A stretch of 44,456 bases of DNA. It comes from an uncultured Oscillospiraceae bacterium (GTDB taxonomy: Bacteria > Bacillota > Clostridia > Oscillospirales > Oscillospiraceae). The position numbers and the translations under genes were made by a program. The stretch is taken from assembly GCA_949948775.1 (NCBI GenBank), contig CATLHC010000014.1:1-44456 (forward strand). The letters are read 5' to 3'. Positions 28,661-44,456 of the stretch are shown one piece after another (position 1 is the first letter of the stretch; every line of letters starts with the position of its first letter). Under the pieces are notes generated by a model. It saw only the letters and a list, made by a program, of their open reading frames with translations, was not told the origin of the DNA and did no database searches.

Positions 28661-31600
28661 TCAACCCTTGTCTCCCCGGATCACCGCGTTCAGCGTCCGA
28701 AACAGTTTATCCACCTCCACCGGCTTGGACAGGTGGCCGTTCATGCCGCACTCCACCGACTTTTTCAAGTCATCGTCGAAGGCGTTGGCCGACATGGCGA
28801 TGATGGGAATGGTGCGGCAGTCCTCCCGGTCCATGCCCCGGATGGCGCGGGCAGCCTCCAGGCCGTCCATCACCGGCATCATGATGTCCATCAAAATCAC
28901 ATCGTAGGTGCCCGGCTGGGTGGTGCGCATCCGCTCCACCGCCTGGACGCCGTTGTACACGCAGTCCACCTGGAACTCCCGCTCCTCCAGCAGACACTGG
29001 GCGATCTCGGCGTTGAGCTCGTTGTCCTCCACCACCAACACCCGCAGGCCGCTAAAGGAAAACACCTCTTCCGCCGCCGCGTCCCGGCCGCCCTCCCCGA
29101 TCTCCAGGGAGATGGTAAAGCTGAACGTGCTGCCCCGCCCCGGCTCACTGTCCAGCAGGATGCCGCTTTCCATCATCTGCACCAGGCGGCTGCTGATGGA
29201 AAGTCCCAGCCCGGTCCCCTGAAGCTTGGCGGGATTCTTGCCCCCCGCCTGCTCAAAGGAGCGGAACACCCGGTCCTGGTCCTCCTTGGCGATGCCGATG
29301 CCCGTGTCCCGCACGGTGAAGGACAGGCCGGCCCTTCCATCGCTCCCATCCAACTCCCGCACCGTCAGGGTGACCTTCCCGTCCTCCGGCGTAAACTTCA
29401 CCGCGTTGCCCAGCAGGTTGATGAGCACCTGACTGATGCGCATCCGGTCCCCTCGGAACCAGTGGTGGGTCAGCTGGATTTCCCGGACAAACGCCACACC
29501 CTTGGCCTGCGCCTGGGGGGCAATCAGCTCTCCGACGGTGTTCAGCATCTCATCCATTTGGAAGTTCACCGGCTCCAGCTTCATCTTGCCGCTCTCGATT
29601 TTGGACATGTCCAAAATATCGTTGATGAGCCCCAGCAGATAGTCGGAGGAGGACTGGATCTTCTGCAGGCAATCCGTCATTCGCTCCCGGCTCTGCCCGG
29701 GCTGGAGGGCGATGGCCGTCATGCCGATAATGCCGTTCATGGGGGTGCGGATCTCATGGCTCATCCGGGAGAGGAACTCGGATTTGGCGCGGCTGGCAAT
29801 GTCGTGCCGCCGCTGGTTCAGCTGGCCCTGAATCACCCGCGCCAGTTCCTCCAGGTCCTGGCGGGTCTCCGGAACCTCCAGCAGCTCCCGCTCCACACCC
29901 AGAATGCAGATGCAGCCCATATAGCTTCCGCTGTCATACATGGGCATCACCACGCCCTGCTGTCCCGGCGAAACGCTCAGGAAACACTGGACCTCGGCCT
30001 GTGCGCTGTCCTTTTGGTCAAACCAGCGCACCTCCTGCGCTCCCAGCCAGCGGAAGAACGCCTCCTTCTGCTCCTCCCGGTATTTCCGGATGCATTCGGT
30101 CTCCTCCTCCGCATCCCGCCGCCATTGGTACTCCAGACAGTTGGCGCTGAAGTCCGCCCGCAGCAGGGACACCAGCACGCCCTCCGCCCGGCAGGTCCGG
30201 CCCAGCTTGCGGATCATCAGCTGCATCTGGGCGGGAAAATCCTCCCCCTTTCCAAACAGGTTCAGGGCCATGGACACCAGGCTCACATCCTCCCCATAGC
30301 CCATGGAGCGGACGTCGACCCCCAGCACCGGGGGAAGCGCCTGGCCCGGAATCTCCTCGTAAAACCGGCACCGGTCCCCGGCGCCGGACGCGGCCTGCCG
30401 GGCCATGCGGATCAGCTGCTCCGCATCGCAGGCCTTGCCCCCCACAGCCGCGCCCGCCCGGAGCCGGAGCTGAAAGGCGTCCTCCCGCAGGTCCTCGTTA
30501 ACCGCGTCCATCAAACCCTGGACCAGCGCCGCCGCCCGCGCCTCGGGTACGTCCTCCAGCCACAGCGCCAGCTCGTCCCGGTTCAGCCGCAGCGCCTCCG
30601 CCCAGCCGCCCGTCTCCCGGGCCAGCGCCGCGCACTGCCCCCGGACCAGCCCGCCCAGCTCCTCCAGCACCATATCGCAGAACATGATGCCGTTTTTCTT
30701 GCTGCTCTCCCGCAGCCCGTCCACGGATAGGACGGCCATCACACCGTCGGGCCGGGTCTTCCGGCGCTCCTGCAGCCGCTTCAGTCCGGCGCTGAAGCAG
30801 TACAGCCCGGTGACGCCGTCCATCATATCCCTCCGGAGCCGCTCCATTTCCCGTTCTTTCTCTTCCTGGATGTCTCGGATGCTGCCCACCAGCTTCCAGC
30901 GCCTGCCGTCGGTGTCGTACAGCACCCTGCCCGACAGAACCACCCAGTGAAACTCCGTCTCCCCGGGCCAGCGCGCCCGGAATTCCGTATGTACCGCGTC
31001 CGCGTCCTGCTGCATGGCGGCCTGGGCCTGGGCCCGGTCCGCCTCATGGATGAACTGCGGCTCAATAAAGCCGCACTCCGTATTGCTGCACGGCCAGCTG
31101 CCGCTCATGGTGGGGTGGTTGACGATATCCAGCGTCTCGGCCCGCAGGTCGTAGGAGAAAAAGGTGTCGCGGGAGGATTCCAGCGCCAGCCGGTAGCGCT
31201 CCTTCTCCTCCAAAAGAATGTTTTCCGCCTCCCACTGCAGGTCGGTCAGGTCCCGGATCAGGTCGTACAGCGCGTCGATCTCCAGGATGTTGGAGGGCTT
31301 AAAGTCCCGCAGGCCCGCCCGGCCCCCGCTGATGCAGGCCATCAACTGCTGGACCGGCCGGGTCAGATGGCGCACCGCGAAATAAATGGCGAACACGCCG
31401 AAGGTCAGCCCGACGAACACAGCGGCCACCATCCACACATAGAGCTGCCGGCTCATGCCGAACAGGTCCCCCTCCACGTCCAGGCCGATCAGCGCCCACT
31501 GCGTGTCCTCATAGGGCACGTTGTTGCTGTACAGCTTCAGCGGGCACGCCACCGCGTACACCCCCTGCCTGTCCAGCCGGACGCCGTCCACCAGCCACAG

Positions 31601-32566
31601 GTCCTCATAGGGCGTATCCCGCAGCGCAAACCCATCCGGCTGGGAGAGGATCAGATCCGCCAGCGTTCCCCGGCCCGCCAGGGGCAGATAGCTGCCGTCG
31701 CCGCGCCTGACGGCCAGCACATACCCGGACTGCTGGGCCGTGTTCAGCTCATCCGCAGGGAGGTAGTCGTTCAGCATGCGCAGGGACACCTCCACCCCCA
31801 ACACGCCGTACACCGTTCCCCGGAAGCGCAGGGGGATGGAATAGGTGATCATTTTATATCCGCCCGCGGCCCCCCGCTCCAGGCTGAAGGGCTGGGACCA
31901 ATAGCCCAGGTCGGCGGTGTCCGCGTCCGGGTGCTCCTCTCCCGCCCGCCAGGGCTCATAGAAGAAGCGCTGGGCGCTCTCCTGTCCCGCTCCGTCCATG
32001 CGGAACCGGCTGGTCCAGCCGGTGTCCAGCGGTACGCCCCACGTCTGGGACAGCTGCTTGCTCCCCCGCTCCAGCATCAGGTCCATATGGTTCACCGGAT
32101 TGGTATTGGGGTCGGAATCCCGGATAAAAAAGCCGCCGAACTCCCCCGCCGCCCCCGGATCCGGCCCAGTGAGCACCAGAAAAGCGCCGGTGGTGTAATT
32201 GTTCTGCAGCAGATCCAGGCACTGGGGAAACAGCTCCTCCAGCACGCCGTCCTTCAGCTCGTCGGAGCTCAGCAGCTGCGTTAAGCTCACACCCTCCCGG
32301 GTCAAAAAGCGCTCCAGGCCCTGGTCCATCAGCGCCTCCTGCTCCCGCACGGAGGCCCAGCGCTGATTCATGTCGTTCTCCAGGACCACCTTTCGGTTTT
32401 CCACCAGCCGGCTCATCATTCCGCTGGAATACCCCTCCAGCGTGGAGGCGGTCCGCCGGACCACCAATGTGCCGATGGAGATGGCCCCCTGCACCAGCAT
32501 GATGGCAATCAGCTGAATGAGAAAAATCCGAAAGATGGTGGATTTTTTGCGGTTTTTCCCCTTCAT
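28661..32566 (-). CDS. Hybrid sensor histidine kinase with degenerate GGDEF domain
   Basis: 1301 residues. The order is: transmembrane helix (about 12-32), a long extracellular dCache-like sensor (35-375), a second helix (378-400), a HAMP-like linker, a PAS domain (about 455-570), a GGDEF-like domain (575-740) and a GAF-like domain (about 760-905). Then come HisKA with SHEIRTPMNG (phospho-accepting His937), an HATPase_c domain ending in DTGIGI and GTGLGLSIS motifs, and a receiver domain with LMDIMMPVMDG (Asp1227). In the GGDEF domain the motif reads RLNRDELALWL, so it cannot make cyclic di-GMP and probably only senses or signals. No output domain follows the receiver, so an HPt protein and another regulator elsewhere are needed. 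It lies 7 bases after the solute-binding lipoprotein gene. Confidence 0.9.
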   Translation of the reverse strand: MKGKNRKKSTIFRIFLIQLIAIMLVQGAISIGTLVVRRTASTLEGYSSGMMSRLVENRKVVLENDMNQRWASVREQEALMDQGLERFLTREGVSLTQLLSSDELKDGVLEELFPQCLDLLQNNYTTGAFLVLTGPDPGAAGEFGGFFIRDSDPNTNPVNHMDLMLERGSKQLSQTWGVPLDTGWTSRFRMDGAGQESAQRFFYEPWRAGEEHPDADTADLGYWSQPFSLERGAAGGYKMITYSIPLRFRGTVYGVLGVEVSLRMLNDYLPADELNTAQQSGYVLAVRRGDGSYLPLAGRGTLADLILSQPDGFALRDTPYEDLWLVDGVRLDRQGVYAVACPLKLYSNNVPYEDTQWALIGLDVEGDLFGMSRQLYVWMVAAVFVGLTFGVFAIYFAVRHLTRPVQQLMACISGGRAGLRDFKPSNILEIDALYDLIRDLTDLQWEAENILLEEKERYRLALESSRDTFFSYDLRAETLDIVNHPTMSGSWPCSNTECGFIEPQFIHEADRAQAQAAMQQDADAVHTEFRARWPGETEFHWVVLSGRVLYDTDGRRWKLVGSIRDIQEEKEREMERLRRDMMDGVTGLYCFSAGLKRLQERRKTRPDGVMAVLSVDGLRESSKKNGIMFCDMVLEELGGLVRGQCAALARETGGWAEALRLNRDELALWLEDVPEARAAALVQGLMDAVNEDLREDAFQLRLRAGAAVGGKACDAEQLIRMARQAASGAGDRCRFYEEIPGQALPPVLGVDVRSMGYGEDVSLVSMALNLFGKGEDFPAQMQLMIRKLGRTCRAEGVLVSLLRADFSANCLEYQWRRDAEEETECIRKYREEQKEAFFRWLGAQEVRWFDQKDSAQAEVQCFLSVSPGQQGVVMPMYDSGSYMGCICILGVERELLEVPETRQDLEELARVIQGQLNQRRHDIASRAKSEFLSRMSHEIRTPMNGIIGMTAIALQPGQSRERMTDCLQKIQSSSDYLLGLINDILDMSKIESGKMKLEPVNFQMDEMLNTVGELIAPQAQAKGVAFVREIQLTHHWFRGDRMRISQVLINLLGNAVKFTPEDGKVTLTVRELDGSDGRAGLSFTVRDTGIGIAKEDQDRVFRSFEQAGGKNPAKLQGTGLGLSISSRLVQMMESGILLDSEPGRGSTFSFTISLEIGEGGRDAAAEEVFSFSGLRVLVVEDNELNAEIAQCLLEEREFQVDCVYNGVQAVERMRTTQPGTYDVILMDIMMPVMDGLEAARAIRGMDREDCRTIPIIAMSANAFDDDLKKSVECGMNGHLSKPVEVDKLFRTLNAVIRGDKG

Positions 32567-32573
32567 TTCTCTT

Positions 32574-34037
32574 TTATTTGCCCACCGCGTCGTTCATCGC
32601 GGCGCAGAACGAGTCGTACCATCCCCGGAAAGCCTCCTCCGTCACATAAGGGGCCGACGCCTCCTCCAAGCCCACGCCCTGGGTGATCGCCGCGGCCACC
32701 GCGGCCCGGTCCTGCGCGGCCTGGTCCGCCATGTGGTACTCCAGCACCTTTCGGGCGGCATAGGCGTTTTGGAAGCTGCGGTTGGTGTACAGCGTCATAT
32801 CATCCATCTCACTGAACACGGCGGCCAGGCAATCGTAGGTTTTGGGCGCCACCACCAGATCCAGCCGCTGGATAACCTGGTCCAGCTGCTGGACGCTGCT
32901 GGCGTCCTTGCGCACCGGCAGATAGCCGGACACACAGCCAAACTGGAGGTTGTTTTCCGCCTGGGTAAACCACTTCAAAAACTCCACGGCGGCGTACTCA
33001 TGCCGCTCGTCGGATTTGCTCACCACCATGCCCGCGCCCTGCTGCACGGCGCATCTGCGCCCGCCCTCAAAAATGGGGGCCGGCATCACGATGTACTCAA
33101 TGGGATAAGCGCCGCCGTCCATCTCCACCCGGTCGGGGAAATACATGGCGGACGCGGTGGAGCCGGTGTAGGCCAGCAGCTCCCCCGTCTTCACATCGTC
33201 GGAGCGGAAGGCGCCGTAGGCGCCAAAGTACCCCTTGACCATGGGCACGTAATAGTTCTCCCACAGACGGCGCAGCGCGTTCTCCGGCACATTCAGGGTC
33301 ATCTCCCCGTTCTCCACCTGAAACAGCTCCACGCCCAGCTGCTGCATCCCGATGATGAAATAGTTGGCCACGGCGTCCCGGCCATAGAAGGCGCGGCCGT
33401 CCCCCGGCACGTCGGGGGTGAGCGAGTCCGTCCACTCATAGTACACCCGGGCGGTGGACGCCACGCCCTCTATCGTGGACAGGTCCTCCAGGTCGGCGCC
33501 GGTGGCCGCGGCAAAGGACTCCCAGTCGGTTTTGTTGATCATCATGATCTCGGTGGACTTGGCCACGGGGAAAATACGCAGGCCCCCGTCGGCGGCAATG
33601 CGCCCCTCCTCAATATAGGAGTCCACATAGGCCGCCAGTTCCTCCTGGGTCAGATAATCCGTCAGGTCGGCCAGCACCCCCGCCTGCTCCGCCTCATAGG
33701 CGGTGTCCGCGTAGGAGGAGAACAGATCGGGCATCTCATCCGCTCCCACCTTCCCAGCCGCGGCGTCCCGCACCGCAGACTCCAGATCGGACACCGAGCC
33801 CTGGGAAAAGCTCTGGATATTGATCCCCCTCTCCCGGCCCACCGTCTCGTTGAACTCCTCCACCAGCGCGTCGAAGGCCTCCTGCTGAGCGCCGTTGTAA
33901 TAGTGCCACACCGTCAGCGAAACCGGGTCCTTCGGGTTCAGCAGGCTTTTCTCCCCACAGCCCGCCAGGCCCAGCGCCAGCGCCGCCGCCAGCGCGCACA
34001 GAGGCAGCCTTCTCAATGATATATTAATTTTTCCCAT
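32574..34037 (-). CDS. Family 1 solute-binding lipoprotein, probable co-sensor
   Basis: 487 residues. A lipoprotein signal (RRLPLCALAAALALGLAGCG) puts the lipidated Cys at about residue 27. The mature part begins SLTVWHYYNGAQQEAF and matches the extracellular solute-binding protein family 1 used for sugars and related compounds. It has the usual two lobes. No ABC permease or ATPase gene is nearby. The gene instead directly precedes a histidine kinase with an extracellular sensor, so it more likely presents a ligand to the kinase than feeds a transporter. A promoter TTGAAG-N17-TAAAAT lies upstream. The ligand is unknown. Confidence 0.9.
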   Translation of the reverse strand: MGKINISLRRLPLCALAAALALGLAGCGEKSLLNPKDPVSLTVWHYYNGAQQEAFDALVEEFNETVGRERGINIQSFSQGSVSDLESAVRDAAAGKVGADEMPDLFSSYADTAYEAEQAGVLADLTDYLTQEELAAYVDSYIEEGRIAADGGLRIFPVAKSTEIMMINKTDWESFAAATGADLEDLSTIEGVASTARVYYEWTDSLTPDVPGDGRAFYGRDAVANYFIIGMQQLGVELFQVENGEMTLNVPENALRRLWENYYVPMVKGYFGAYGAFRSDDVKTGELLAYTGSTASAMYFPDRVEMDGGAYPIEYIVMPAPIFEGGRRCAVQQGAGMVVSKSDERHEYAAVEFLKWFTQAENNLQFGCVSGYLPVRKDASSVQQLDQVIQRLDLVVAPKTYDCLAAVFSEMDDMTLYTNRSFQNAYAARKVLEYHMADQAAQDRAAVAAAITQGVGLEEASAPYVTEEAFRGWYDSFCAAMNDAVGK

Positions 34038-34284: not shown

Positions 34285-37200
34285 ATGACAACAGCTGAAC
34301 GGGAGCGCGTCGCAGCGGTATTCTCTGAACGGATCAGAACCCAAGGCTTCCTCCGCCTCCAGCATGTTCCTCGCGTATTTGAAGACGAAAAGCTGGACAA
34401 AACCCTCTATGCCGGAATCGGACCTAAGCGCTGGATCATGGAAAACTTCCCGGAATTTTGGGTGGACCCCAGCAAGGAAATCGTCACTTTCTCCACGTCT
34501 TCGGCCTCCGCGTCCCCGGCCGCCGCCGGGCCTTCCTCCGCCGCGTCGGCGCTGAGCGCCGCGCAGCGTAAAGCGCTGGTGGATCATTTCCAGGATGAAA
34601 TCGACCGCTCGGGCCTGTGCTGGTGCGCCAACGTGGCCGGTTTCATGCGCGTCAACGGCCTGCCCGAGTGGCGGCAGCTGGTCCGTCCTGGCGAGTCCCT
34701 GCCCGCGTGGCTGGCCCGGGAGTTCCCCGAATTCCGCCACGACATGAAAAACGGGGCCAGCGCCATCTTCCCCCTGAACAGCACCGGCGGCGACGCCCAG
34801 CGCCCCCGCTCTGCCGACGCTCAGCTGCGGAGCATCAGCTTCAAATTCGCCTATCTCCCCATGACCGTAGAGATTCTGACTCAGCTCCAGCAGGTGACCG
34901 GCGACCTCTCCCTGCGCCACGAGGCGTGGCACGGCACCTGCGTGCAGAAAACCGCCGCCTATCTCCTCGGCATGGGAGAGGATATCCTGGACGACAGCCG
35001 CGCCCAGGAGCCCCGCCTGGCCTTTCCCCTGAAGCTGAAGACCAAAAAGGGTCAGCACGTCTACGCGGTCCTGGTGCCCAACACCAACGCCAACGCCGCT
35101 CAGCCCTGGATGATGGGCGGCTTCTGCTTCCCCGGCCAGAAGGACCCCGCCGGCTACGGCAAATGGCTGTGCCAGACCTTCGGCCTGCCCTCCGAGGACC
35201 AGGACCTGGTCCGCATCGCCTATGAACAGATTCGCCTGCGCACCCAGGAGCTGGAGCAGCTGCGCGTCAGCCTGCTGGCCAGCCTGGGGGACCTCTCCGC
35301 CGCGCTGGAGCAGGGAGAGTCCATTCCCGAAGCCCTCGCCCGTCAGCTGACCGCCTATCAGAGCGGGTGGAACACACTGCGTGAGGCCATGGAGAACGCA
35401 GTGATCCCCGTGCCCGGCGGTAAGGAAAACCTGGCCTGCATCAGCGACATCCTGGATAGCCGGGGGGCCGTTTCCGCCCAGCTGGATAAGGCCGCCGACG
35501 CCTTCCAGGCGCTGGCGCAGGGTTCCTGGAGCTATCTTCTGGAGGGCTGGCTGTGCGGCGAGGACCGTTCCGGCGACGATCTGGCCGCCTGGGCGGCCCT
35601 GCGGGAGAGCGGCGAGAGCGAGAGCGGCATGGTGGCCGGCTGCCGCCGGCTGCTTCAGCCCTTCCAGGCCCTGCGGGAGCTGACCCGGCCCAGGGACAAG
35701 TTCGACAGCGCCGTCTCCGAGGCCGCGGACGCCGCAAACAGCCACTTCGGCATGGAGCTGACTCCCCCGGTGGTGCGCTCCTCCTTTGTCAAGATTATGC
35801 AGGACTCCCCCGACACCCTGGCGTGTTTGAACAATGTCGGTGTGATCGAAAGCCTGCTGGACCACGCCGAGGCCCTGGCCATGGATAAGCACGACACATG
35901 CTCCGTGTCCGCCCAGACGGCAGACTGCCTTCAGGCAAGCTGCCCCGAGCTGCTGCGGAGCCTGTCCGGCGCGGACCCCAGGATCAGCGCCATCCTGTCC
36001 AGCTTCGCCCGCCCCGACCTGCTGGAGCAGGCCATCATGCTGGGGCAGACTGAAACGGTGCGGGCGCTGCTGGAGGACCCCGCCTCCCGGGAGGAGCTGG
36101 AGCTGGACGAGGCGGGTGCGCAGGCTATTCTGGATAAACTGGAACGGATTGACCCGCTCAGCGGCGAGTTCTCCCTCTATGGCGCGGGCATGCGCCTGGT
36201 GCTCACCGTCAATATCCGCCACGGCCAAGCCGAGCGCTGCTTTATGACCGGCCTGGCCCTGAAGGACCTGCGGTGCGTGGACTGCCTGTTCAAGCTCTAC
36301 CAGGCCGCCGGCCGGGACGAGGAGATCGGCGTGCTCTACCACGCCTACGGCGCTCAGGTCTCCGAGGAGCTGCGCGGCAAGTTTGTGACCAGCCTTCTGC
36401 TCAGCGGCGGCATCGATCCCCGCCAGGCGCTGCAGGAGGACGTGCTCAATTTCCTGACCCCCGAGCTGATGCAGCGGGCCGCCGCCCAGGACGGCTTTCT
36501 GCCCGAGGAGACGGTCCGGCTGCTGCAGGACATTTACGCCAAATTGGACGTTCCCTTCGTCCGTTATGTGGTGTTCCTGAGCGGCGAGCTGCAAAATTAT
36601 ATCCTTCACCCCGAAAACATCGAGGCCCTCCAGGCCGCCGGCATTGAGCAGACCATGGAGCAGCTGGTGTCCCTGACCAAGAGCAGCCACTACGCCAAGG
36701 GGCGCGCCCCCCTCCAGGTGGCCCAGCGAACGTATCACTTTATGGGCACCTGGGGCGGGCTGGCTGAGACCTTCGCCGCCCTGGCCCCGGAGGACACCGC
36801 CGTCAGGACCTTCCTGCTGCGGGTCGCCCGAGACCGGAAGGACGAGGAGCAGATGCTCCGTCTGCTCCAAGGCGACCCCGAGCTCCGGGCCCGATACCGG
36901 AAGGACTACGGCACGCTGCTGTTTTCCAAAGGGGATTACACCGCCTTTTTGGAGCATGTCGCCTCTCAGGAGGACACCGCTCCGGAGTTCCGCCTTCAGG
37001 TCGTCATCGCCGCCGTGCGCACCGGAAACTGGGACGGCGTTCTGCCCCCCCTGCCCGAAGGAGAGGAGTTGGCTGACTGTACCCAGCTGGTGCAGGAGCT
37101 GGCCCGGGCTCTGCTGGAGACGGGCCATATGGAGCAGCTCTACGCGCTACAGATCGGACTGTTCGACCAACTGCTCAACCTCCACAACAGCGAGGCCCTC

Positions 37201-40200
37201 AAGCGCTTCATCACCGTGGATGACGCCATGGGTCCGGAGGCCCTGGCCGCTTTGCAGCGGCAGGCCTTGGACACCGGCCATATGGGCCTTGCCGTCTACT
37301 GCGGCAGCGTTTTGGGGGTGGAGCCCACGTGTATCGCCGGACAGGCGGAGCAGTACTTCGCCTCTCTCATGCAGGAGGTGCTGGGCCAGAATGCCTCCGA
37401 GCAGCTCTCGGCCATTCAGCGGATTCAGATCATCTTCGGCGAGCAGTACGCGGCCCATCAGGTCCAGCTGTTCACCATCCGCTTCCACGCCATGCTGGTG
37501 AACCTGGATGGAGATGGGGCGGAGGACGAGTCCGCGCTGGCGGACATGCTCCAGCCCAGTCTCCCGGAGGACGCCCTGCGCGCCCTGCTGGACACCCTGG
37601 ACGGCAGCCCCATGGCGGACAAGCTGCTGGCCCGGCCCGCCCTCTACGAAAAGCTGGAGCTGGTCTGCCGGGAGACGGGGATGGCATCCGAATGCCTGCG
37701 CTTTTTCCACCGGCACCGCACCGGACAGAGCGCGGCCTTCGGCCGGTTCCTATGCCAGCGCTATCTGTCCGCGCTGAACGCGGGGAGCTTCCCCAACGAG
37801 TTTTTGATTGAGGCGGAGTCCTTTGCCCTGGAGCAGCTGCAGCTCTCCCAAGACCCTGCGGCCGCCATGTGCGTCTATCTGATCGAGACCATCCGGCGCC
37901 GGCCTCCCTTCCGGGCCTTCACCCTGTGCTGCCTGCTGCAGCAGCCCGCCGGGGAGGAGGACCCCGATATGGAAAACTGGCTGCGCAGCGAGGCCGCCCA
38001 GTTCCCGCCCGACGCCCCGCTCACCGAACTGGCCATCTTTGCCTCCGTCCTGGCGGATACGCACAGCGACGTATACGAGTATCTGGATTTCTGCCGGTCC
38101 TTCCAGCTGCTCACCGAAGAGGAGAAATGCAGCGTCCTGCAGATGACCCGGGCCTACGCCACCGAGGCGGAGAGCATTCTCCTGCTCCACATGCTCTACC
38201 AGGACTTTGAAAACGCCGCCACCTGGGCCATGTGCTGCGGCCTTCCCTTCCGGGACCGGCCTCAGATCTACGCCCGCCTGCTCTACTGCGGGGCCTTGGC
38301 CGCGGCCAGGGCGCCTCAGTCCGCCGACGACCGGAGCGAGGCCTGCGTCTCCTGGGCGCAGTGCATTGATTACTGCCGCAAAAACAACCAGAGCGCTCTG
38401 GTCCTCCAGGCTCTGCGCGGCTGGGCGCAGGAGATCTTGGACAAAAACGGGCCGGTGTTCCCCTGGTACGTGGCGAAGAACTTCATCACCGTGATTGAGG
38501 ACCTGTGCCAAAAGGGAGACTGCATTCCGGAGTGGCCCTCCGATCAGGCGGAGTGCCTGGTCAGAGACATGTGCGCCATCTTCGGACGCATCAATACGGT
38601 TGCCGCCGGCGACTCCAACCATAAGACCCTGCGGACCATCAACGAGCTGGCGGTGCTCACCGGCCAGGAGGATGTGGTTCTGGGCTGTCCCAATACCCAG
38701 GAAAGCCTGCTGGGCCAGAACCGCAAGCTGGGCTTTGTGCTGGCCCTGCTTCTGCTGCAGGCGGGCAGGGTCGAAAAGGCCTGGACGCTTCTCCAAACCC
38801 TGGTGAAGCTCCGGGACGGCATGGCCTTCTCCGTGCTGGGGAGCGATCTGGCAGCTAAGAGCGTGCAGGAGCTGGACCTTTGGCAGCAGACCCCGGTGGC
38901 CAAGTCTCTGATCAAGGCCATCCTCCCCAACGGCAACGCGCTGAACGGCCTGAGTATGCGCACGCTGATCATGGAGCACATCCTGCATGACAGCTGCGAC
39001 GCGGGCATCGCCGCTGTGGAGGAGCTGCTGCGCAACAATGAGCATGACGGCCTGCTCTATGTGGCGCTGTTCATTCTGTGCAAGCAGGACTACCGGCGCC
39101 ACATCCCTCAGATCTATCGCGCCCTGGCCGGGGTCTACCGCAATTACTCCCTGGACGAGCGGGGCATTGAGCGCAGCTGGTACTACACCCGCACCCGCAA
39201 GGACATCTTCCGGCTGCTGATCATCACCCGGGCCGTCATGGAGCGCCTGGGCCTTCCCATCCCCGAGCAGGACCGGGACGTGAATGAGTTTCTGGGCAGC
39301 GCCAGCTTGATCAGCCAGGTGGGCCGCCAGGACAAGAGCGCCTTTGTCCAGGACCACGCCGGCCTGCTCAGCGAGGTGACCGGAAGGTTCGCCGGCTATG
39401 ACCAGCAGGGCGCCGAGCTGTGGGTGGAGGCCCTGATGGGCTCCGTGACCGGGAACTGGTCGCCCTTCCTGCGCCACGCCTATGAGCAGAGGCTTGTCTC
39501 CCGCAGCTATTTTGAATGCACGAACTATTCGTCCTGGGGTCTGCTGCGCTGTGTGCTCCAGGTGCTCAAGACTCTTTCCGCCGAAGAGCGCCCCGCCTTC
39601 CTGTCCTGGCTGCGGGACAACATCAACAAGGGGGAGGGATCCCTCAAGCGGCTGTACGCCGTCCACCGCACCGCCTCCATCCTCTGCACCTCCTGCAGCC
39701 TGGACGCGGTCAGCGGCCAGATGCTCGCCCTTCCCTGGGAAGAGCACTTTATCTGCCTGGGCGATATGAAGGATATGGACTGCGAGGAAACGGCCAGCTG
39801 CTACCACTGGCTGCGCGGGAATACCCAGCCCTCCGCCCTGCAGGACACGCTGCGCATCTTTGTCCAGATCAACCAGGATATTCTGAAGTCCCAGGTGCTC
39901 TATGGGGACGCCCGCAAGCTGTTTGAGCAGGGGCAGGACGGGGCGGCCGAGGCCTATTACAATGTGCTGTACAACTTTTACGGGACCGTACCCGACACCG
40001 GCTTCATCCCCTTCAGCGGCTCCCTGTACCCGGAGCGCCCCGCAGAGCTGACCAATGAAAAGAAGAGCTGGTACCGAGAGATTTATCAGTGCCGCAGCCG
40101 CATCTGCGCCGCCTTTTCCGGCAGCCAGCCCACCATTGAAATGCTGGGGCGGGACGATTTAAAGCCCCGCAGCTGCTTCAATATGCTCATCACCATGCTC

Positions 40201-43056
40201 TCCTCCAAGCGGGCCGGGGAGATCCACCGCCTGGCCCGGTATCTCAGCGGCAACAGCCGCCGGCTGGCGGTGAACATTCTCAAGCTGGTCTCCCCCGATG
40301 TGGAGGACAGCGAGAAACTGCAGATCTATGACTCCTTCCGCCGGGTGGACGACGCGGCGGAGGGCCTGGCCCTGCTGCTGAGCCAAAAGGGCCAGGACGG
40401 CCGATATCTCTTCCTTCAGAACGGGAGCACCGGCAACAGCATGAGTCAGAAATACCGCAAGCTGATCAGCGGCCGCTACCTCCATACCCCTCCCTGCTAT
40501 CTGACGCTGTCCGCCCCGCCCGATCCCTCCGCCTTTGCCCAGACGGAGGACGCCCCCGCGCTGTCTGCCCGGGGGCGGTCCGGCCCGGCGGACGCCGACC
40601 TGGGCGCGGGTCCGCTTCAGGCGGAGCCTGTGGATCTTGTGCCCGGCTTTGCCCTGGAAATCCAGGGCCGGCTCAGCGGCCAGGAGCTGCCCTCTCTGGA
40701 GGAACTCCAGTTCTCCTATGATCGGTGCTCTCCCTTTGACTATGAAGGCAAAGCGGCCGTCTCCGGCCAGATCTACTGCCGGATCGCCATGGAAGAGCAG
40801 CCCAGCGCCTTCGCGGTGAGCGAGGCTTTGATCGGCTACGGGCTGGATTACTTTTCCTACCACACCTCGGACAGCCCGCACAGCGACCCTCTGCTGGCGT
40901 TCCAGGCCGAGCGGGAGCTGGCGCTGTACTGCAAGGCCCATCCCACCGACGGGTCCCACTACCACACCTTTATTGCCAAAATCCCCATCGCCCTGCAGCG
41001 TATGCTCAAGAGCAGCCCCTCGGTGGACGCTCTCGTTCAGGACTACCAGCGCAATACCCGGGGTTACGACGCCCTGGCCGGCTTTGTGGAGAACCGGCTG
41101 CCCTTCCTGTCCAGCATTTTCACCGTGATCCAGACCCTGGACCGGTCCTACAGCAATATCAACGGGCCCAAGCTGCAGAACGCCGAAAACTACAAGGGCG
41201 CGTATTCCAGCGCCCTCAAGCAGCTGGAGGGCCTGACCATCTCCCGGGAATTCGGAGAAGAGTGGCTGAACGTGCGCAACAGCCTGGTGACCAAGCTTTA
41301 CGACGCCCTCAACAGCCTGGACCAGCGCCCCGACCTGTCGGTGACGGTGTTGAACCACAAGATGTCCGGCATGCGCATCGACGCCATTTTCGGCGAACTG
41401 CAGAATACCGGTCGGGAGCGGGCCACCGACATCGAGCTTCAGGCCACGTTCTTTGATGGGGAAAACAGCTGGCTGGGCCGGAAATACGGCTACGCCAACC
41501 TGCTGCCCGGCGAAAAGGTGGCCTTCGCCCTGGAATACGAGGTGCAGGAGGAGGAAACCAAGACTCTGCGCTATACCCTGAACGTTACCTATTACCACAA
41601 CCAGCGTCAGATGAGCCGCGACCCGGAAAAGGGGGAGCTGACCATTGTACCCGCCGGACCGCTGGCCTTCTCCGCCGACCGGTACGCCACCGACTATCCG
41701 GTCCAATTCGACATCGACGAGAACGGCACCGTGGTGGGTAAGGACTTCTTCGGCCGGGAGCAGCAGATGGAAGCCATGCGGGAGACCGTGGCGGGCAAAG
41801 CTTTCCCCGACTTCAAAAACTTCGTGATCCGGGGCATCCGCCGTTCCGGCAAGACGTCTCTGCTCAACTATCTGGAGACCTATGTCAGCGCCGCCTGCAA
41901 GGATGCCATCGTGGTCCGGGTGGACTGCCAGGGCGTCGTCACCCAGCCCGTTCAGACCACCTTCATCACCAAAGTGCTCAACGCCTTGGAGCGCAAGCTC
42001 CCTGCGGCCACCAGGACCGAGGCGTGGCGGCGGCTGGTGGAAAAATGGACCCTGGCCCAGGGAGACCAGGACCGTTCGCCCGACCAGCTCCAGGACTTTT
42101 ATCTGGAGCTGGAGCTGGCCATGAACGCCCCAGCCGCCGGCCAGGAGGCGGAGCTCAACCACGCCCAGACCCGAAAGGGCCTGCTGCTGATGATCGACGA
42201 ATTTGACGTGATGCTCCACCGGATGCAGTCCAGCCAGCAGGATACCGTTCTGCTCCAGGGCCTGCGCGCCATCACCCAGAGTTCCGATTGCCGCCGGGCC
42301 GTCCACTTCGTTCTGTGCGGCTCCAACAACCTGATCAGCTATACCCGGAAGGGAGAGCGATATTACCAGACCTTCCAGGACTTCAAGCCTCAGATTGAGG
42401 TAGACGAGCTGCCCCAGAAGGATCTGGAGGAGATGCTTCTGGCCCCTTATCGGGACGATCCGGAGGTCGTTCTGCCCAAGGAGACCTTGGAATGGGTGCG
42501 CCGCTACACCGGCGGGCTGGTGTGGTACACCAAGCTGCTGGGCAACCAGATGCTCAAAGTGGCCAAGGAAAACCGCCGGGGCGTGGTCTATCCCTCCGAC
42601 GTCTGCAAGGCCTTTTCCAGCGTGTGCGAGGGGAGCTACTGCATCCAGTTCTACGAGGGCTGCGAGGACATGGAGCACGATGTGCTGGAGGCCCTGGCCA
42701 GTCTGTCCCCCCGCTATCAAAGCTACGTCTCGCTGGACAAGCTGAAGGAACAGCTGGCCGGCCTGCGCAAAGCGTCCCCCGAGCAGCCCGTTTCGGCGGA
42801 AGCCGCGGACAGCCGGCTGGGCAGCCTGCTGCGCAAGCCCCATATGGACGGGCAGATCGCGGACTCCATCGAAAAGCTCATCGACCTGAAGCTGATTCAG
42901 CGGGACAGTACCGGCCGAGACCGCTACTGCTTTAAGCGGGAGATCTACCGCCGCTTCTTCCGCACTCAGGTCACCCGGGTGGACAAAGGGGAGAGCCTGC
43001 CCGATCAAATGGACGCTTTGAACGTCTCTAAGAAAAAGATCAGCGACGATTTTTGA
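34285..43056 (+). CDS. Giant multi-domain STAND-like ATPase protein
   Basis: 2923 residues in one frame. Residues 1-72 and about 93-168 are two similar winged-helix-like, LOTUS-resembling units (GPKRWIMENFPEFW and LPAWLAREFPEF), joined by a Ser/Ala linker. A compact domain (about 180-330) and a very long helical-repeat region (about 335-2065) follow. A Pro/Ala-rich hinge lies at about 2070-2130, a mixed domain at 2130-2345 and an immunoglobulin-like beta sandwich at about 2350-2445. The C-terminal P-loop ATPase has FFGREQQM (2488-2495), Walker A GIRRSGKTS with Lys2523, Walker B LLLMIDEFD with Asp2638-Glu2639 and sensor CGSNN near 2678. It ends in a winged helix. The layout recalls STAND sensors, with repeats as the sensing part. 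AAGGGG precedes the ATG. No enzymatic effector is recognised. A second ATPase gene follows. A defence role is possible but unproven. Confidence 0.85.
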   Translation: MTTAERERVAAVFSERIRTQGFLRLQHVPRVFEDEKLDKTLYAGIGPKRWIMENFPEFWVDPSKEIVTFSTSSASASPAAAGPSSAASALSAAQRKALVDHFQDEIDRSGLCWCANVAGFMRVNGLPEWRQLVRPGESLPAWLAREFPEFRHDMKNGASAIFPLNSTGGDAQRPRSADAQLRSISFKFAYLPMTVEILTQLQQVTGDLSLRHEAWHGTCVQKTAAYLLGMGEDILDDSRAQEPRLAFPLKLKTKKGQHVYAVLVPNTNANAAQPWMMGGFCFPGQKDPAGYGKWLCQTFGLPSEDQDLVRIAYEQIRLRTQELEQLRVSLLASLGDLSAALEQGESIPEALARQLTAYQSGWNTLREAMENAVIPVPGGKENLACISDILDSRGAVSAQLDKAADAFQALAQGSWSYLLEGWLCGEDRSGDDLAAWAALRESGESESGMVAGCRRLLQPFQALRELTRPRDKFDSAVSEAADAANSHFGMELTPPVVRSSFVKIMQDSPDTLACLNNVGVIESLLDHAEALAMDKHDTCSVSAQTADCLQASCPELLRSLSGADPRISAILSSFARPDLLEQAIMLGQTETVRALLEDPASREELELDEAGAQAILDKLERIDPLSGEFSLYGAGMRLVLTVNIRHGQAERCFMTGLALKDLRCVDCLFKLYQAAGRDEEIGVLYHAYGAQVSEELRGKFVTSLLLSGGIDPRQALQEDVLNFLTPELMQRAAAQDGFLPEETVRLLQDIYAKLDVPFVRYVVFLSGELQNYILHPENIEALQAAGIEQTMEQLVSLTKSSHYAKGRAPLQVAQRTYHFMGTWGGLAETFAALAPEDTAVRTFLLRVARDRKDEEQMLRLLQGDPELRARYRKDYGTLLFSKGDYTAFLEHVASQEDTAPEFRLQVVIAAVRTGNWDGVLPPLPEGEELADCTQLVQELARALLETGHMEQLYALQIGLFDQLLNLHNSEALKRFITVDDAMGPEALAALQRQALDTGHMGLAVYCGSVLGVEPTCIAGQAEQYFASLMQEVLGQNASEQLSAIQRIQIIFGEQYAAHQVQLFTIRFHAMLVNLDGDGAEDESALADMLQPSLPEDALRALLDTLDGSPMADKLLARPALYEKLELVCRETGMASECLRFFHRHRTGQSAAFGRFLCQRYLSALNAGSFPNEFLIEAESFALEQLQLSQDPAAAMCVYLIETIRRRPPFRAFTLCCLLQQPAGEEDPDMENWLRSEAAQFPPDAPLTELAIFASVLADTHSDVYEYLDFCRSFQLLTEEEKCSVLQMTRAYATEAESILLLHMLYQDFENAATWAMCCGLPFRDRPQIYARLLYCGALAAARAPQSADDRSEACVSWAQCIDYCRKNNQSALVLQALRGWAQEILDKNGPVFPWYVAKNFITVIEDLCQKGDCIPEWPSDQAECLVRDMCAIFGRINTVAAGDSNHKTLRTINELAVLTGQEDVVLGCPNTQESLLGQNRKLGFVLALLLLQAGRVEKAWTLLQTLVKLRDGMAFSVLGSDLAAKSVQELDLWQQTPVAKSLIKAILPNGNALNGLSMRTLIMEHILHDSCDAGIAAVEELLRNNEHDGLLYVALFILCKQDYRRHIPQIYRALAGVYRNYSLDERGIERSWYYTRTRKDIFRLLIITRAVMERLGLPIPEQDRDVNEFLGSASLISQVGRQDKSAFVQDHAGLLSEVTGRFAGYDQQGAELWVEALMGSVTGNWSPFLRHAYEQRLVSRSYFECTNYSSWGLLRCVLQVLKTLSAEERPAFLSWLRDNINKGEGSLKRLYAVHRTASILCTSCSLDAVSGQMLALPWEEHFICLGDMKDMDCEETASCYHWLRGNTQPSALQDTLRIFVQINQDILKSQVLYGDARKLFEQGQDGAAEAYYNVLYNFYGTVPDTGFIPFSGSLYPERPAELTNEKKSWYREIYQCRSRICAAFSGSQPTIEMLGRDDLKPRSCFNMLITMLSSKRAGEIHRLARYLSGNSRRLAVNILKLVSPDVEDSEKLQIYDSFRRVDDAAEGLALLLSQKGQDGRYLFLQNGSTGNSMSQKYRKLISGRYLHTPPCYLTLSAPPDPSAFAQTEDAPALSARGRSGPADADLGAGPLQAEPVDLVPGFALEIQGRLSGQELPSLEELQFSYDRCSPFDYEGKAAVSGQIYCRIAMEEQPSAFAVSEALIGYGLDYFSYHTSDSPHSDPLLAFQAERELALYCKAHPTDGSHYHTFIAKIPIALQRMLKSSPSVDALVQDYQRNTRGYDALAGFVENRLPFLSSIFTVIQTLDRSYSNINGPKLQNAENYKGAYSSALKQLEGLTISREFGEEWLNVRNSLVTKLYDALNSLDQRPDLSVTVLNHKMSGMRIDAIFGELQNTGRERATDIELQATFFDGENSWLGRKYGYANLLPGEKVAFALEYEVQEEETKTLRYTLNVTYYHNQRQMSRDPEKGELTIVPAGPLAFSADRYATDYPVQFDIDENGTVVGKDFFGREQQMEAMRETVAGKAFPDFKNFVIRGIRRSGKTSLLNYLETYVSAACKDAIVVRVDCQGVVTQPVQTTFITKVLNALERKLPAATRTEAWRRLVEKWTLAQGDQDRSPDQLQDFYLELELAMNAPAAGQEAELNHAQTRKGLLLMIDEFDVMLHRMQSSQQDTVLLQGLRAITQSSDCRRAVHFVLCGSNNLISYTRKGERYYQTFQDFKPQIEVDELPQKDLEEMLLAPYRDDPEVVLPKETLEWVRRYTGGLVWYTKLLGNQMLKVAKENRRGVVYPSDVCKAFSSVCEGSYCIQFYEGCEDMEHDVLEALASLSPRYQSYVSLDKLKEQLAGLRKASPEQPVSAEAADSRLGSLLRKPHMDGQIADSIEKLIDLKLIQRDSTGRDRYCFKREIYRRFFRTQVTRVDKGESLPDQMDALNVSKKKISDDF

Positions 43057-43131
43057 TGGGGCTTTCCCGCCGTGCCCGGTGCGCGCTGTGCGTCAGGTAT
43101 GAGAAGAGAATGAGAAAGAAGGTCGAATCGG

Positions 43132-44456
43132 TTGGAGAGAAACAGAAGCAATCCCTATCGAGAGATCCCCCGGTTTTTAAAGCGTTATGTGGGCCGCGAC
43201 GCCGTCCGGCAGGAGCTGGACGAAAAGCTGCGCAGCGGAGTCAACACAGTGGTCATGGGTGTGGAGGGCGTTGGCAAAAGCGCCTTCCTCAGCAGCGTAT
43301 TCACCCCCGAGTACTGCAGCCGGATGGCCCTTGAGGAGCATATCCTGATCAATCAGATCAGCTATCCCACCGACCTGGCCACGGAGGATATCTATAACTT
43401 TTTTGCCGAGGCCGTTCGGGACGCCGCGGAGGTCCTGGACTACTGCGGCCAGGAGCGGCTCTACGCCGACATCGTAGCCAGAGCCAGGCGGTACCAGGAG
43501 GAAAACAGGGAACCCCAGAGCTATTTCCAAAGAATCTGCAAATACATACGCATGAAGGGCTACTGCGTGGTCCTGGTCATCGACCAGTTTGAACGCTTCA
43601 CGTCCTCCAGGCATGTGCTGGCCGAGCACCACGGCGTCGTGCGCAATGTATTGGTGGACAAAAACCTCTGCTTTGTGGTGGCCACGGATTATGACTTCGA
43701 CAAGGAGTCACTGCCCCAGAACGCCTCCGGCTCCCTCCTCCCCCAGCTGTTCGCGGGGCACGAGATCCCCCTGAAGGGGCTGGACCCGGCGGAGTGCGGA
43801 CTTTTCCTGCGCGGCGTCAGCGGCCGGGACGACTTCACGCCGGAGGAGCTGGGCAAGCTCTCCCGCCTGACCGGCGGCGTTCCGGCCCTGCTGTGCCGGG
43901 CGGCGTATTACGCCCTGGAGCAAAAGCAAGACGGAGCGGACATCTATTGGCGGGCGGTGAAGGAGGCCGTGCTGCGGGACTGCGGCGGCCTGATGGACCG
44001 CTGGCTGGGCATCCTGACGCCCCAGGAGGCGGACCTGCTCAGCGAGCTGGCCGATCAGGTTGAGAGCGCCGTTCCGATCACCCCCAGCCTGCGGGACGGA
44101 GCCGCTCCCCTGCTGCTGAACCGGGGACTGATCGTGGACCTGGGAGACCACTGCTATGACTTCAACTCCCGCCTGTTCCAGGACCACTGCGCCCAAAATC
44201 CTCCCCAGCCCAGGCGCCCGCAGGATCTGCTCACGCTGAAGCCCACGCCGGCCCCGGCGGCGCCCCGACCGGAGCCTCTGATCAGCCAAGGCAGGCAGCC
44301 CTGGCCGCCGCAGGGCGGGGTCATCTACGCCTACTCCACCCATATTCACGGGGGGACCATTGAGGCGGGCGGCGTACAGGTCCACAACACCGTGGTCCAA
44401 AGCCTGTCGGTCTCCGAGCTGCTGGGCATGCTGAGCGAGGGCGGGAGCTCTCCCGG
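43132..44456 (+). CDS. P-loop STAND-like ATPase, partial at the window end
   Basis: An open frame runs from an in-frame stop at 43111 to the end of the window without a stop (441 codons visible). The best start is TTG at 43132 with AGAAGG nine bases upstream; no ATG fits. Early residues PRFLKRYVGRDAVRQEL resemble the segment before STAND ATPases. Walker A is GVEGVGKSAF with Lys49. Walker B is VVLVIDQFERF with Asp151. A helical lid (about 225-275) and a winged-helix-like part follow. After a proline-rich linker (about 363-395) comes a Gly/Val-rich stretch, YAYSTHIHGGTIEAGG then VQVHNTVVQSLSVSELLGML, where a new domain seems to begin. It starts 75 bases after the giant ATPase gene, so the two are probably cotranscribed. 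The C-terminal part is outside the window. Confidence 0.8.
   Translation, partial: MERNRSNPYREIPRFLKRYVGRDAVRQELDEKLRSGVNTVVMGVEGVGKSAFLSSVFTPEYCSRMALEEHILINQISYPTDLATEDIYNFFAEAVRDAAEVLDYCGQERLYADIVARARRYQEENREPQSYFQRICKYIRMKGYCVVLVIDQFERFTSSRHVLAEHHGVVRNVLVDKNLCFVVATDYDFDKESLPQNASGSLLPQLFAGHEIPLKGLDPAECGLFLRGVSGRDDFTPEELGKLSRLTGGVPALLCRAAYYALEQKQDGADIYWRAVKEAVLRDCGGLMDRWLGILTPQEADLLSELADQVESAVPITPSLRDGAAPLLLNRGLIVDLGDHCYDFNSRLFQDHCAQNPPQPRRPQDLLTLKPTPAPAAPRPEPLISQGRQPWPPQGGVIYAYSTHIHGGTIEAGGVQVHNTVVQSLSVSELLGMLSEGGSSP

Follow-up and report, generated by a model that had tools for sequence, protein, structure and literature searches.

The window analysed here is a 44,456-nucleotide stretch of DNA from an uncultured Oscillospiraceae bacterium (GCA_949948775.1) and comprises an entire contig of the draft genome (CATLHC010000014.1; G000:C14). 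At its 3' end, two adjacent genes on the forward strand encode a giant protein of 2923 residues with a C-terminal ATPase and a second, STAND-type ATPase (gene 2). The open reading frame (ORF) of the giant begins with ATG and contains no internal stops. Gene 2 starts with TTG at position 43132, 75 bases past the giant's stop codon, and its frame stays open to the end of the window. An initial annotation had proposed a giant ending in an ATPase and, 75 bases downstream on the same strand, a second P-loop ATPase gene. Both genes are real, as judged by their ORFs and by Pfam matches above the cut-off for both ATPases. The main features are as follows.

34285..43056, + strand: gene 1, giant 2923-residue helical protein with a C-terminal ATPase, proposed sensor (ORF and translation; aligned with P0009, P0012, P0004, P0007 and the partial P0013)
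41746..42264, + strand: ATPase domain of the giant, residues 2488-2660 (Pfam AAA_16, E 8.8e-8, 33.3 bits against a cut-off of 32.6)
41833-41856, + strand: Walker A of the giant, GIRRSGKT (alignment and regular expression)
42184-42204, + strand: Walker B of the giant, LLMIDEF (alignment and regular expression)
43132..44456, + strand: 5' part of gene 2, STAND-type ATPase, 441 codons visible (ORF; cut by the contig end, with the rest on G000:C55 (L010), to L010:1013)
43180..43710, + strand: nSTAND1-type NTPase domain of gene 2 (Pfam nSTAND1, E 5.1e-9, 36.7 bits against a cut-off of 27.1)
43258-43281, + strand: Walker A of gene 2, GVEGVGKS (regular expression)
43570-43593, + strand: Walker B of gene 2, VLVIDQFE (regular expression)

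Because the window is a whole contig, gene 2 is cut at its end. The start of contig C55 of the same genome matched the window end over a 154-base overlap with one mismatch, and the frame continued there to position 1013. This continuation was supported by the counterpart in Lawsonibacter (L019), which is a single ORF of 827 residues. The two pieces were treated separately and were not merged. The gene 2 of the window genome ends about 90 residues before its Lawsonibacter counterpart (L019:19260-19527) and lacks the C-terminal end found in L018 and L020.

Relatives were sought with the giant alone. Two of 149 related genomes and 3 of 394 genomes of the order matched, the window genome included in both counts; in the phylum (1/398) it was the only match, and in the families of two carriers (1/63 and 1/9) the carriers themselves were the only ones. 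A contig scan with the single giant sequence found no relatives. The same scan with a three-sequence alignment recovered five loci, namely L019 (74% identity), L018 from Ruthenibacterium (giant partial at a contig edge), L020 from an Oscillospiraceae metagenome-assembled genome, and two that were taken for contigs of genomes G092 and G432; the contig scans and the IMG/VR scan were built on patterns of short peptides and do not amount to a census. Together with the window, these made six close loci, whose giants could be aligned along their length, with conservation peaking around the ATPase. A profile of the C-terminal module matched 6 of 196 genomes of the class, the window genome and five further ones. 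Four of these five were fetched (L038-L041); the fifth, G977, has a frame with three stops and was left out. The four distant giants have 1621-2422 residues, and their BLAST likeness to the window giant lies mainly in the C-terminal ATPase part. Since the giant has relatives whose identity over the length ranges from 74% to about 25%, it is more than a chance ORF.

A second ATPase gene lay directly behind the giant, on the same strand, in all ten loci examined, all from Clostridia. Rare adjacency, which would speak against the single two-ATPase system of the initial annotation, was thus not what we found, and adjacency by chance was rejected on the same count. The intergenic gap was 75 bases in the window, 35 in L019, 18 in G092 and 60 in G432; in L018 and L020 gene 2 begins at or just past the end of the giant (start codon uncertain), and in the four distant loci the listed ORFs overlap by 4 to 22 bases. 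Both P-loop ATPases are intact. Regular expressions recognised Walker A and B of gene 2 in 10/10 loci, and Walker A of the giant in 10/10 and Walker B in 9/10, none being recognised in L041; in the alignment, both motifs were present in the six close giants. In distant loci the two ATPases are distantly similar to each other (e.g. L039, E 9e-10). At L040:1034-7882 (G930), the gene 2 homologue is split by opposite-strand phage genes for a late activator, a major head protein, a head protease and a neck protein (PHROGs), an arrangement that we read as Mu-like.

In 8 of the 10 loci, gene 2 carries a helical C-terminal domain with HEPN-type motifs; the copy of the window genome lies past the window end. 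The earlier statement that no effector was recognised therefore did not hold, because the contig end cuts gene 2 before this domain. We looked for Rx4-6H in which the R is followed by a polar residue (mostly N, D or H), and this was found in the tested gene 2 domains. The motif reads R-N-x3-H in the window genome (C55), L018, L019, L015 and L038, R-R-x3-H in L039 and R-K-x3-H in L040; in L020 it is R-N-x2-H, one residue short, so that R-x4-H occurs in 7 of the 8 copies. A second HEPN hallmark, an acidic residue typically in Ex3[KR], was counted as present: its E was invariant in 5/5 aligned sequences, as E-x3-R in the window genome, L018, L019 and L020 and as E-x3-N in L015, and the remote subfamily has F-E-A-I-I-N-R-K at this place. 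None of six members of the domain matched a Pfam HEPN family. The fold evidence is weak; with the motifs, we consider it quite likely that the C-terminal domain of gene 2 is a HEPN domain. A search with the HEPN profile matched 3 of 299 genomes, the window genome included; the two weak matches in other genomes (L030 and L031) were inspected and not used. The domain also occurs outside the gene pair, because a 1503-residue open frame in G385 (L025:1-2115; 704 residues seen), helicase-like by motif reading, ends in it (RNRCCH).

Whether HEPN in fold or not, the domain could instead be an RNA-binding or dimerisation adaptor without ribonuclease (RNase) activity, with the ATPases or an unseen partner doing the work. 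The weakness of the fold evidence and the short R-H spacing in L020 would suit this explanation, and the part of PMC3710099 available to us describes some motif-less HEPN domains that probably bind RNA only. Against it speak the R, N and H of the motif, which were invariant in 5/5 aligned copies (window genome, L018, L019, L020 and L015), and the recurrence of R-x4-H in a remote subfamily of otherwise low similarity. We consider an adaptor rather unlikely.

The remaining two loci, G092 and L041, have a gene 2 of only 473 and 470 residues without the HEPN-like domain, and a small ORF follows directly. Both small proteins have three hydrophobic segments (overlapping windows merged), the last of them after a charged stretch. 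They share 27% identity and a common FISGII stretch. Thus, the same switch bears either a HEPN-like domain (8/10 loci) or a protein with three transmembrane segments (2/10). A conflict or immune system would fit this exchange together with the patchy occurrence and the STAND-type ATPases, and we conclude that the pair is probably a two-gene STAND-type conflict system, most plausibly directed against phages.

Several observations weigh against this conclusion. On recounting, the fifth of the VIA rows was tied with rhodopsins, BLAST gave no match between the two three-transmembrane proteins at E 1e-3, and the giant and gene 2 of G092 and the giant of L041 did not reach the profile cut-offs; because of these three points, we lowered our confidence slightly, both in the conflict system and in the HEPN assignment. 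In addition, the neighbours of the pair in the window are ordinary genes, the L019 pair otherwise lies among core genes such as those for hydrogenase, RecA and RecX, and searches of phage, plasmid and IMG/VR sequences gave no match to the giant. Two other neighbourhoods provide supporting context. In G432, a gene for a 955-residue WYL-domain protein begins about 40 bases after gene 2 (L017:185-3052; PADLOC 1.4e-16, Pfam just under the cut-off) and is followed by a gene for a CARF/PD-(D/E)XK-like nuclease (L016:3037-3960; PADLOC Csx1, E 1.5e-10); both are perhaps in the same operon as the pair. In L019, genes for an MT-A70 methyltransferase and a BglII-family endonuclease lie about 2.9 kb downstream of the pair (L019:22407-23731).

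Patchy distribution would also suit a mobile-element module for regulation or maintenance, such as one with TniB-like ATPases, and gene 2 of L041 matched TniB just at the cut-off (E 8.6e-5, 22.5 bits against 22.4). No transposase or integrase was found among the scanned neighbours (17 proteins around L019 and 8 around the five other close loci, some neighbours being unscanned). The GC content of the giant and gene 2 equals that of the contig (0.64 against 0.63), and the giant has no plasmid or phage match. We consider a mobile-element module very improbable. A tblastn search of plasmids with gene 2 of L019 returned four cyanobacterial records, which matched in the ATPase part only.

The body of the giant upstream of its ATPase was analysed by structure prediction, periodicity and profile searches, with the following features.

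34291..34491, + strand: predicted winged-helix unit 1, residues 3-69, perhaps LOTUS-like (AlphaFold model)
34558..34770, + strand: predicted winged-helix unit 2, residues 92-162 (AlphaFold model, as unit 1)
35962..40584, + strand: long helical region, residues 560-2100 (helical periodicity above shuffles)
41302..41664, + strand: possible beta-sandwich, weak, residues about 2340-2460 (FxLYD and CARDB matches under the cut-off)

The initial annotation had described duplicated N-terminal winged-helix units, a long helical-repeat region and a beta sandwich. A medium-confidence AlphaFold model placed winged-helix units at about residues 3-69 and 92-162 (predicted local distance difference test blocks of 73-82 and 61-82), but no Pfam match to them exceeded the cut-off. 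On a weak fold comparison, two LOTUS-like winged helices may be present there; Foldseek gave no significant match for either of the two models. The helical character of the central region is clear (periodicity 1.51 and 1.63 against 1.05 +/- 0.13 in shuffles, residues 560-1800), but 'repeat' was not demonstrated because no repeat length exceeded the shuffles. For the beta sandwich there were only matches under the cut-off, to FxLYD at residues 2368-2422 (E 0.0034) and, in a relative of the giant, to CARDB (E 0.016), and strand periodicity did not rise above shuffles. The first 2300 residues gave no profile match above the cut-off. Searches of PDB sequences returned nothing convincing, whether the query was the giant, gene 2 or a profile of the HEPN-like domain or of the N-terminus.

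If the pair is a conflict system, the giant would be the sensor and switch, its tandem winged-helix heads and very long helical body receiving the trigger. Its C-terminal ATPase would then change state or assemble, driven by ATP, together with the ATPase of gene 2, the partner that would bear the effector. Upon assembly, the HEPN-like domain is predicted to cut RNA, so that the infected cell would stop growing; the three-transmembrane protein of two relatives would act on the membrane instead. The initial annotation had likewise suggested ligand sensing by the giant and perhaps phage defence. A structured RNA is our guess for the trigger because of the LOTUS-like heads.

The same heads and the HEPN-like domain would be pointers to RNA in a different explanation, by which the pair serves RNA metabolism or the stress response in these anaerobes, with the giant as a scaffold ATPase that brings in an RNase partner for RNA regulation, without any anti-phage role. 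The ordinary surroundings of the window locus and the core genes around L019 agree with such a function. The very patchy occurrence is ill-suited to conserved RNA processing, as is the fact that two lineages have a membrane protein instead of the RNase-like part. We regard this explanation as unlikely. Within the conflict-system reading, a more specific and tentative version is paired-receptor immunity resembling the sensor-helper NLR pairs of animals and plants. A sensor ATPase of 1600-3100 residues, with RNA-reading LOTUS-like heads in its larger forms, would detect structured phage RNA and engage a separate STAND helper with an exchangeable slot for a HEPN RNase or a three-transmembrane membrane effector; this version is possible, though doubtful. 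If it is true, bacteria would have a counterpart of sensor-helper NLR pairs in these sensor and effector STAND ATPases on two genes, and an immune-type ATPase with LOTUS-like heads would open the sensing of structured RNA in bacteria to direct tests. That a membrane protein can take the place of an RNase-like domain behind one and the same switch suggests that the conserved core is the switch and not the weapon.

Database searches gave the pair no name. The giant matched no model in PADLOC-DB 2.0.0 or PHROGs, and its identification as a housekeeping or characterised defence protein, which would have counted against the initial annotation, was rejected since Pfam, NCBIfam, PADLOC and PHROGs named none. 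The gene 2 copies gave only weak partial matches in PADLOC-DB 2.0.0, the best being PtuA on the P-loop part (E 1.1e-4), so assignment to Septu or another PADLOC system was rejected. PADLOC Avs models matched neither the two proteins of the window nor gene 2 in the five other close loci. We take Avs/AVAST and other STAND immune receptors to combine a STAND ATPase with a large helical sensor region and exchangeable effectors, as here; in Avs, sensor and effector share one protein, whereas here they are on two genes.

Literature searches covering open PMC papers found no description of this very pair, and the accessible part of PMC7159879 contains no such gene pair. The earlier claim that no described system matches nevertheless needs qualification. 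The accessible part of PMC8195603 predicts a mobile counter-invader operon of two genes that both encode STAND NTPases (nSTAND2); one of these has eroded NTP-binding motifs and is fused to an effector, most often GT4 or HEPN. This operon is the closest published kind by analogy: two adjacent STAND-type genes, one with a variable effector (paired ATPases in 10/10 loci, HEPN-like domain in 8/10). The likeness is one of described architecture; the effector-bearing STAND protein of that operon is eroded, whereas Walker A and B of gene 2 are intact in 10/10 loci, and the available account does not mention a helical partner of 1600-3100 residues. DUF499/BrxC-like ATPases with HEPN (PMC12839542) and Ava_2192 (PMC3710099) are described in the portions of these papers available to us. 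Like the DUF499/BrxC-like proteins as described there, the pair joins a STAND/ORC-type AAA+ ATPase to a HEPN RNase (here HEPN-like and predicted) and has winged helices (here predicted). It differs from them in that neither a methyltransferase nor PglZ nor a helicase is encoded by the pair itself, in that the HEPN-like domain sits at the C-terminus, and in that the partner is always a giant ATPase. The tandem LOTUS-like winged helices may also recall ED1-ED2 of Egalitarian at the N-terminus of its RNA-binding region, in the same order as in our model, as far as described in the available part of PMC13186709; Egalitarian is a eukaryotic mRNA transport adaptor, and the likeness comes from the weak fold comparison only.

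A search for a sigma-70-like promoter of the giant on its own strand was negative. Upstream, positions 28661-34037 of the window hold genes for a hybrid histidine kinase and an extracellular solute-binding protein, which are divergent from the giant.
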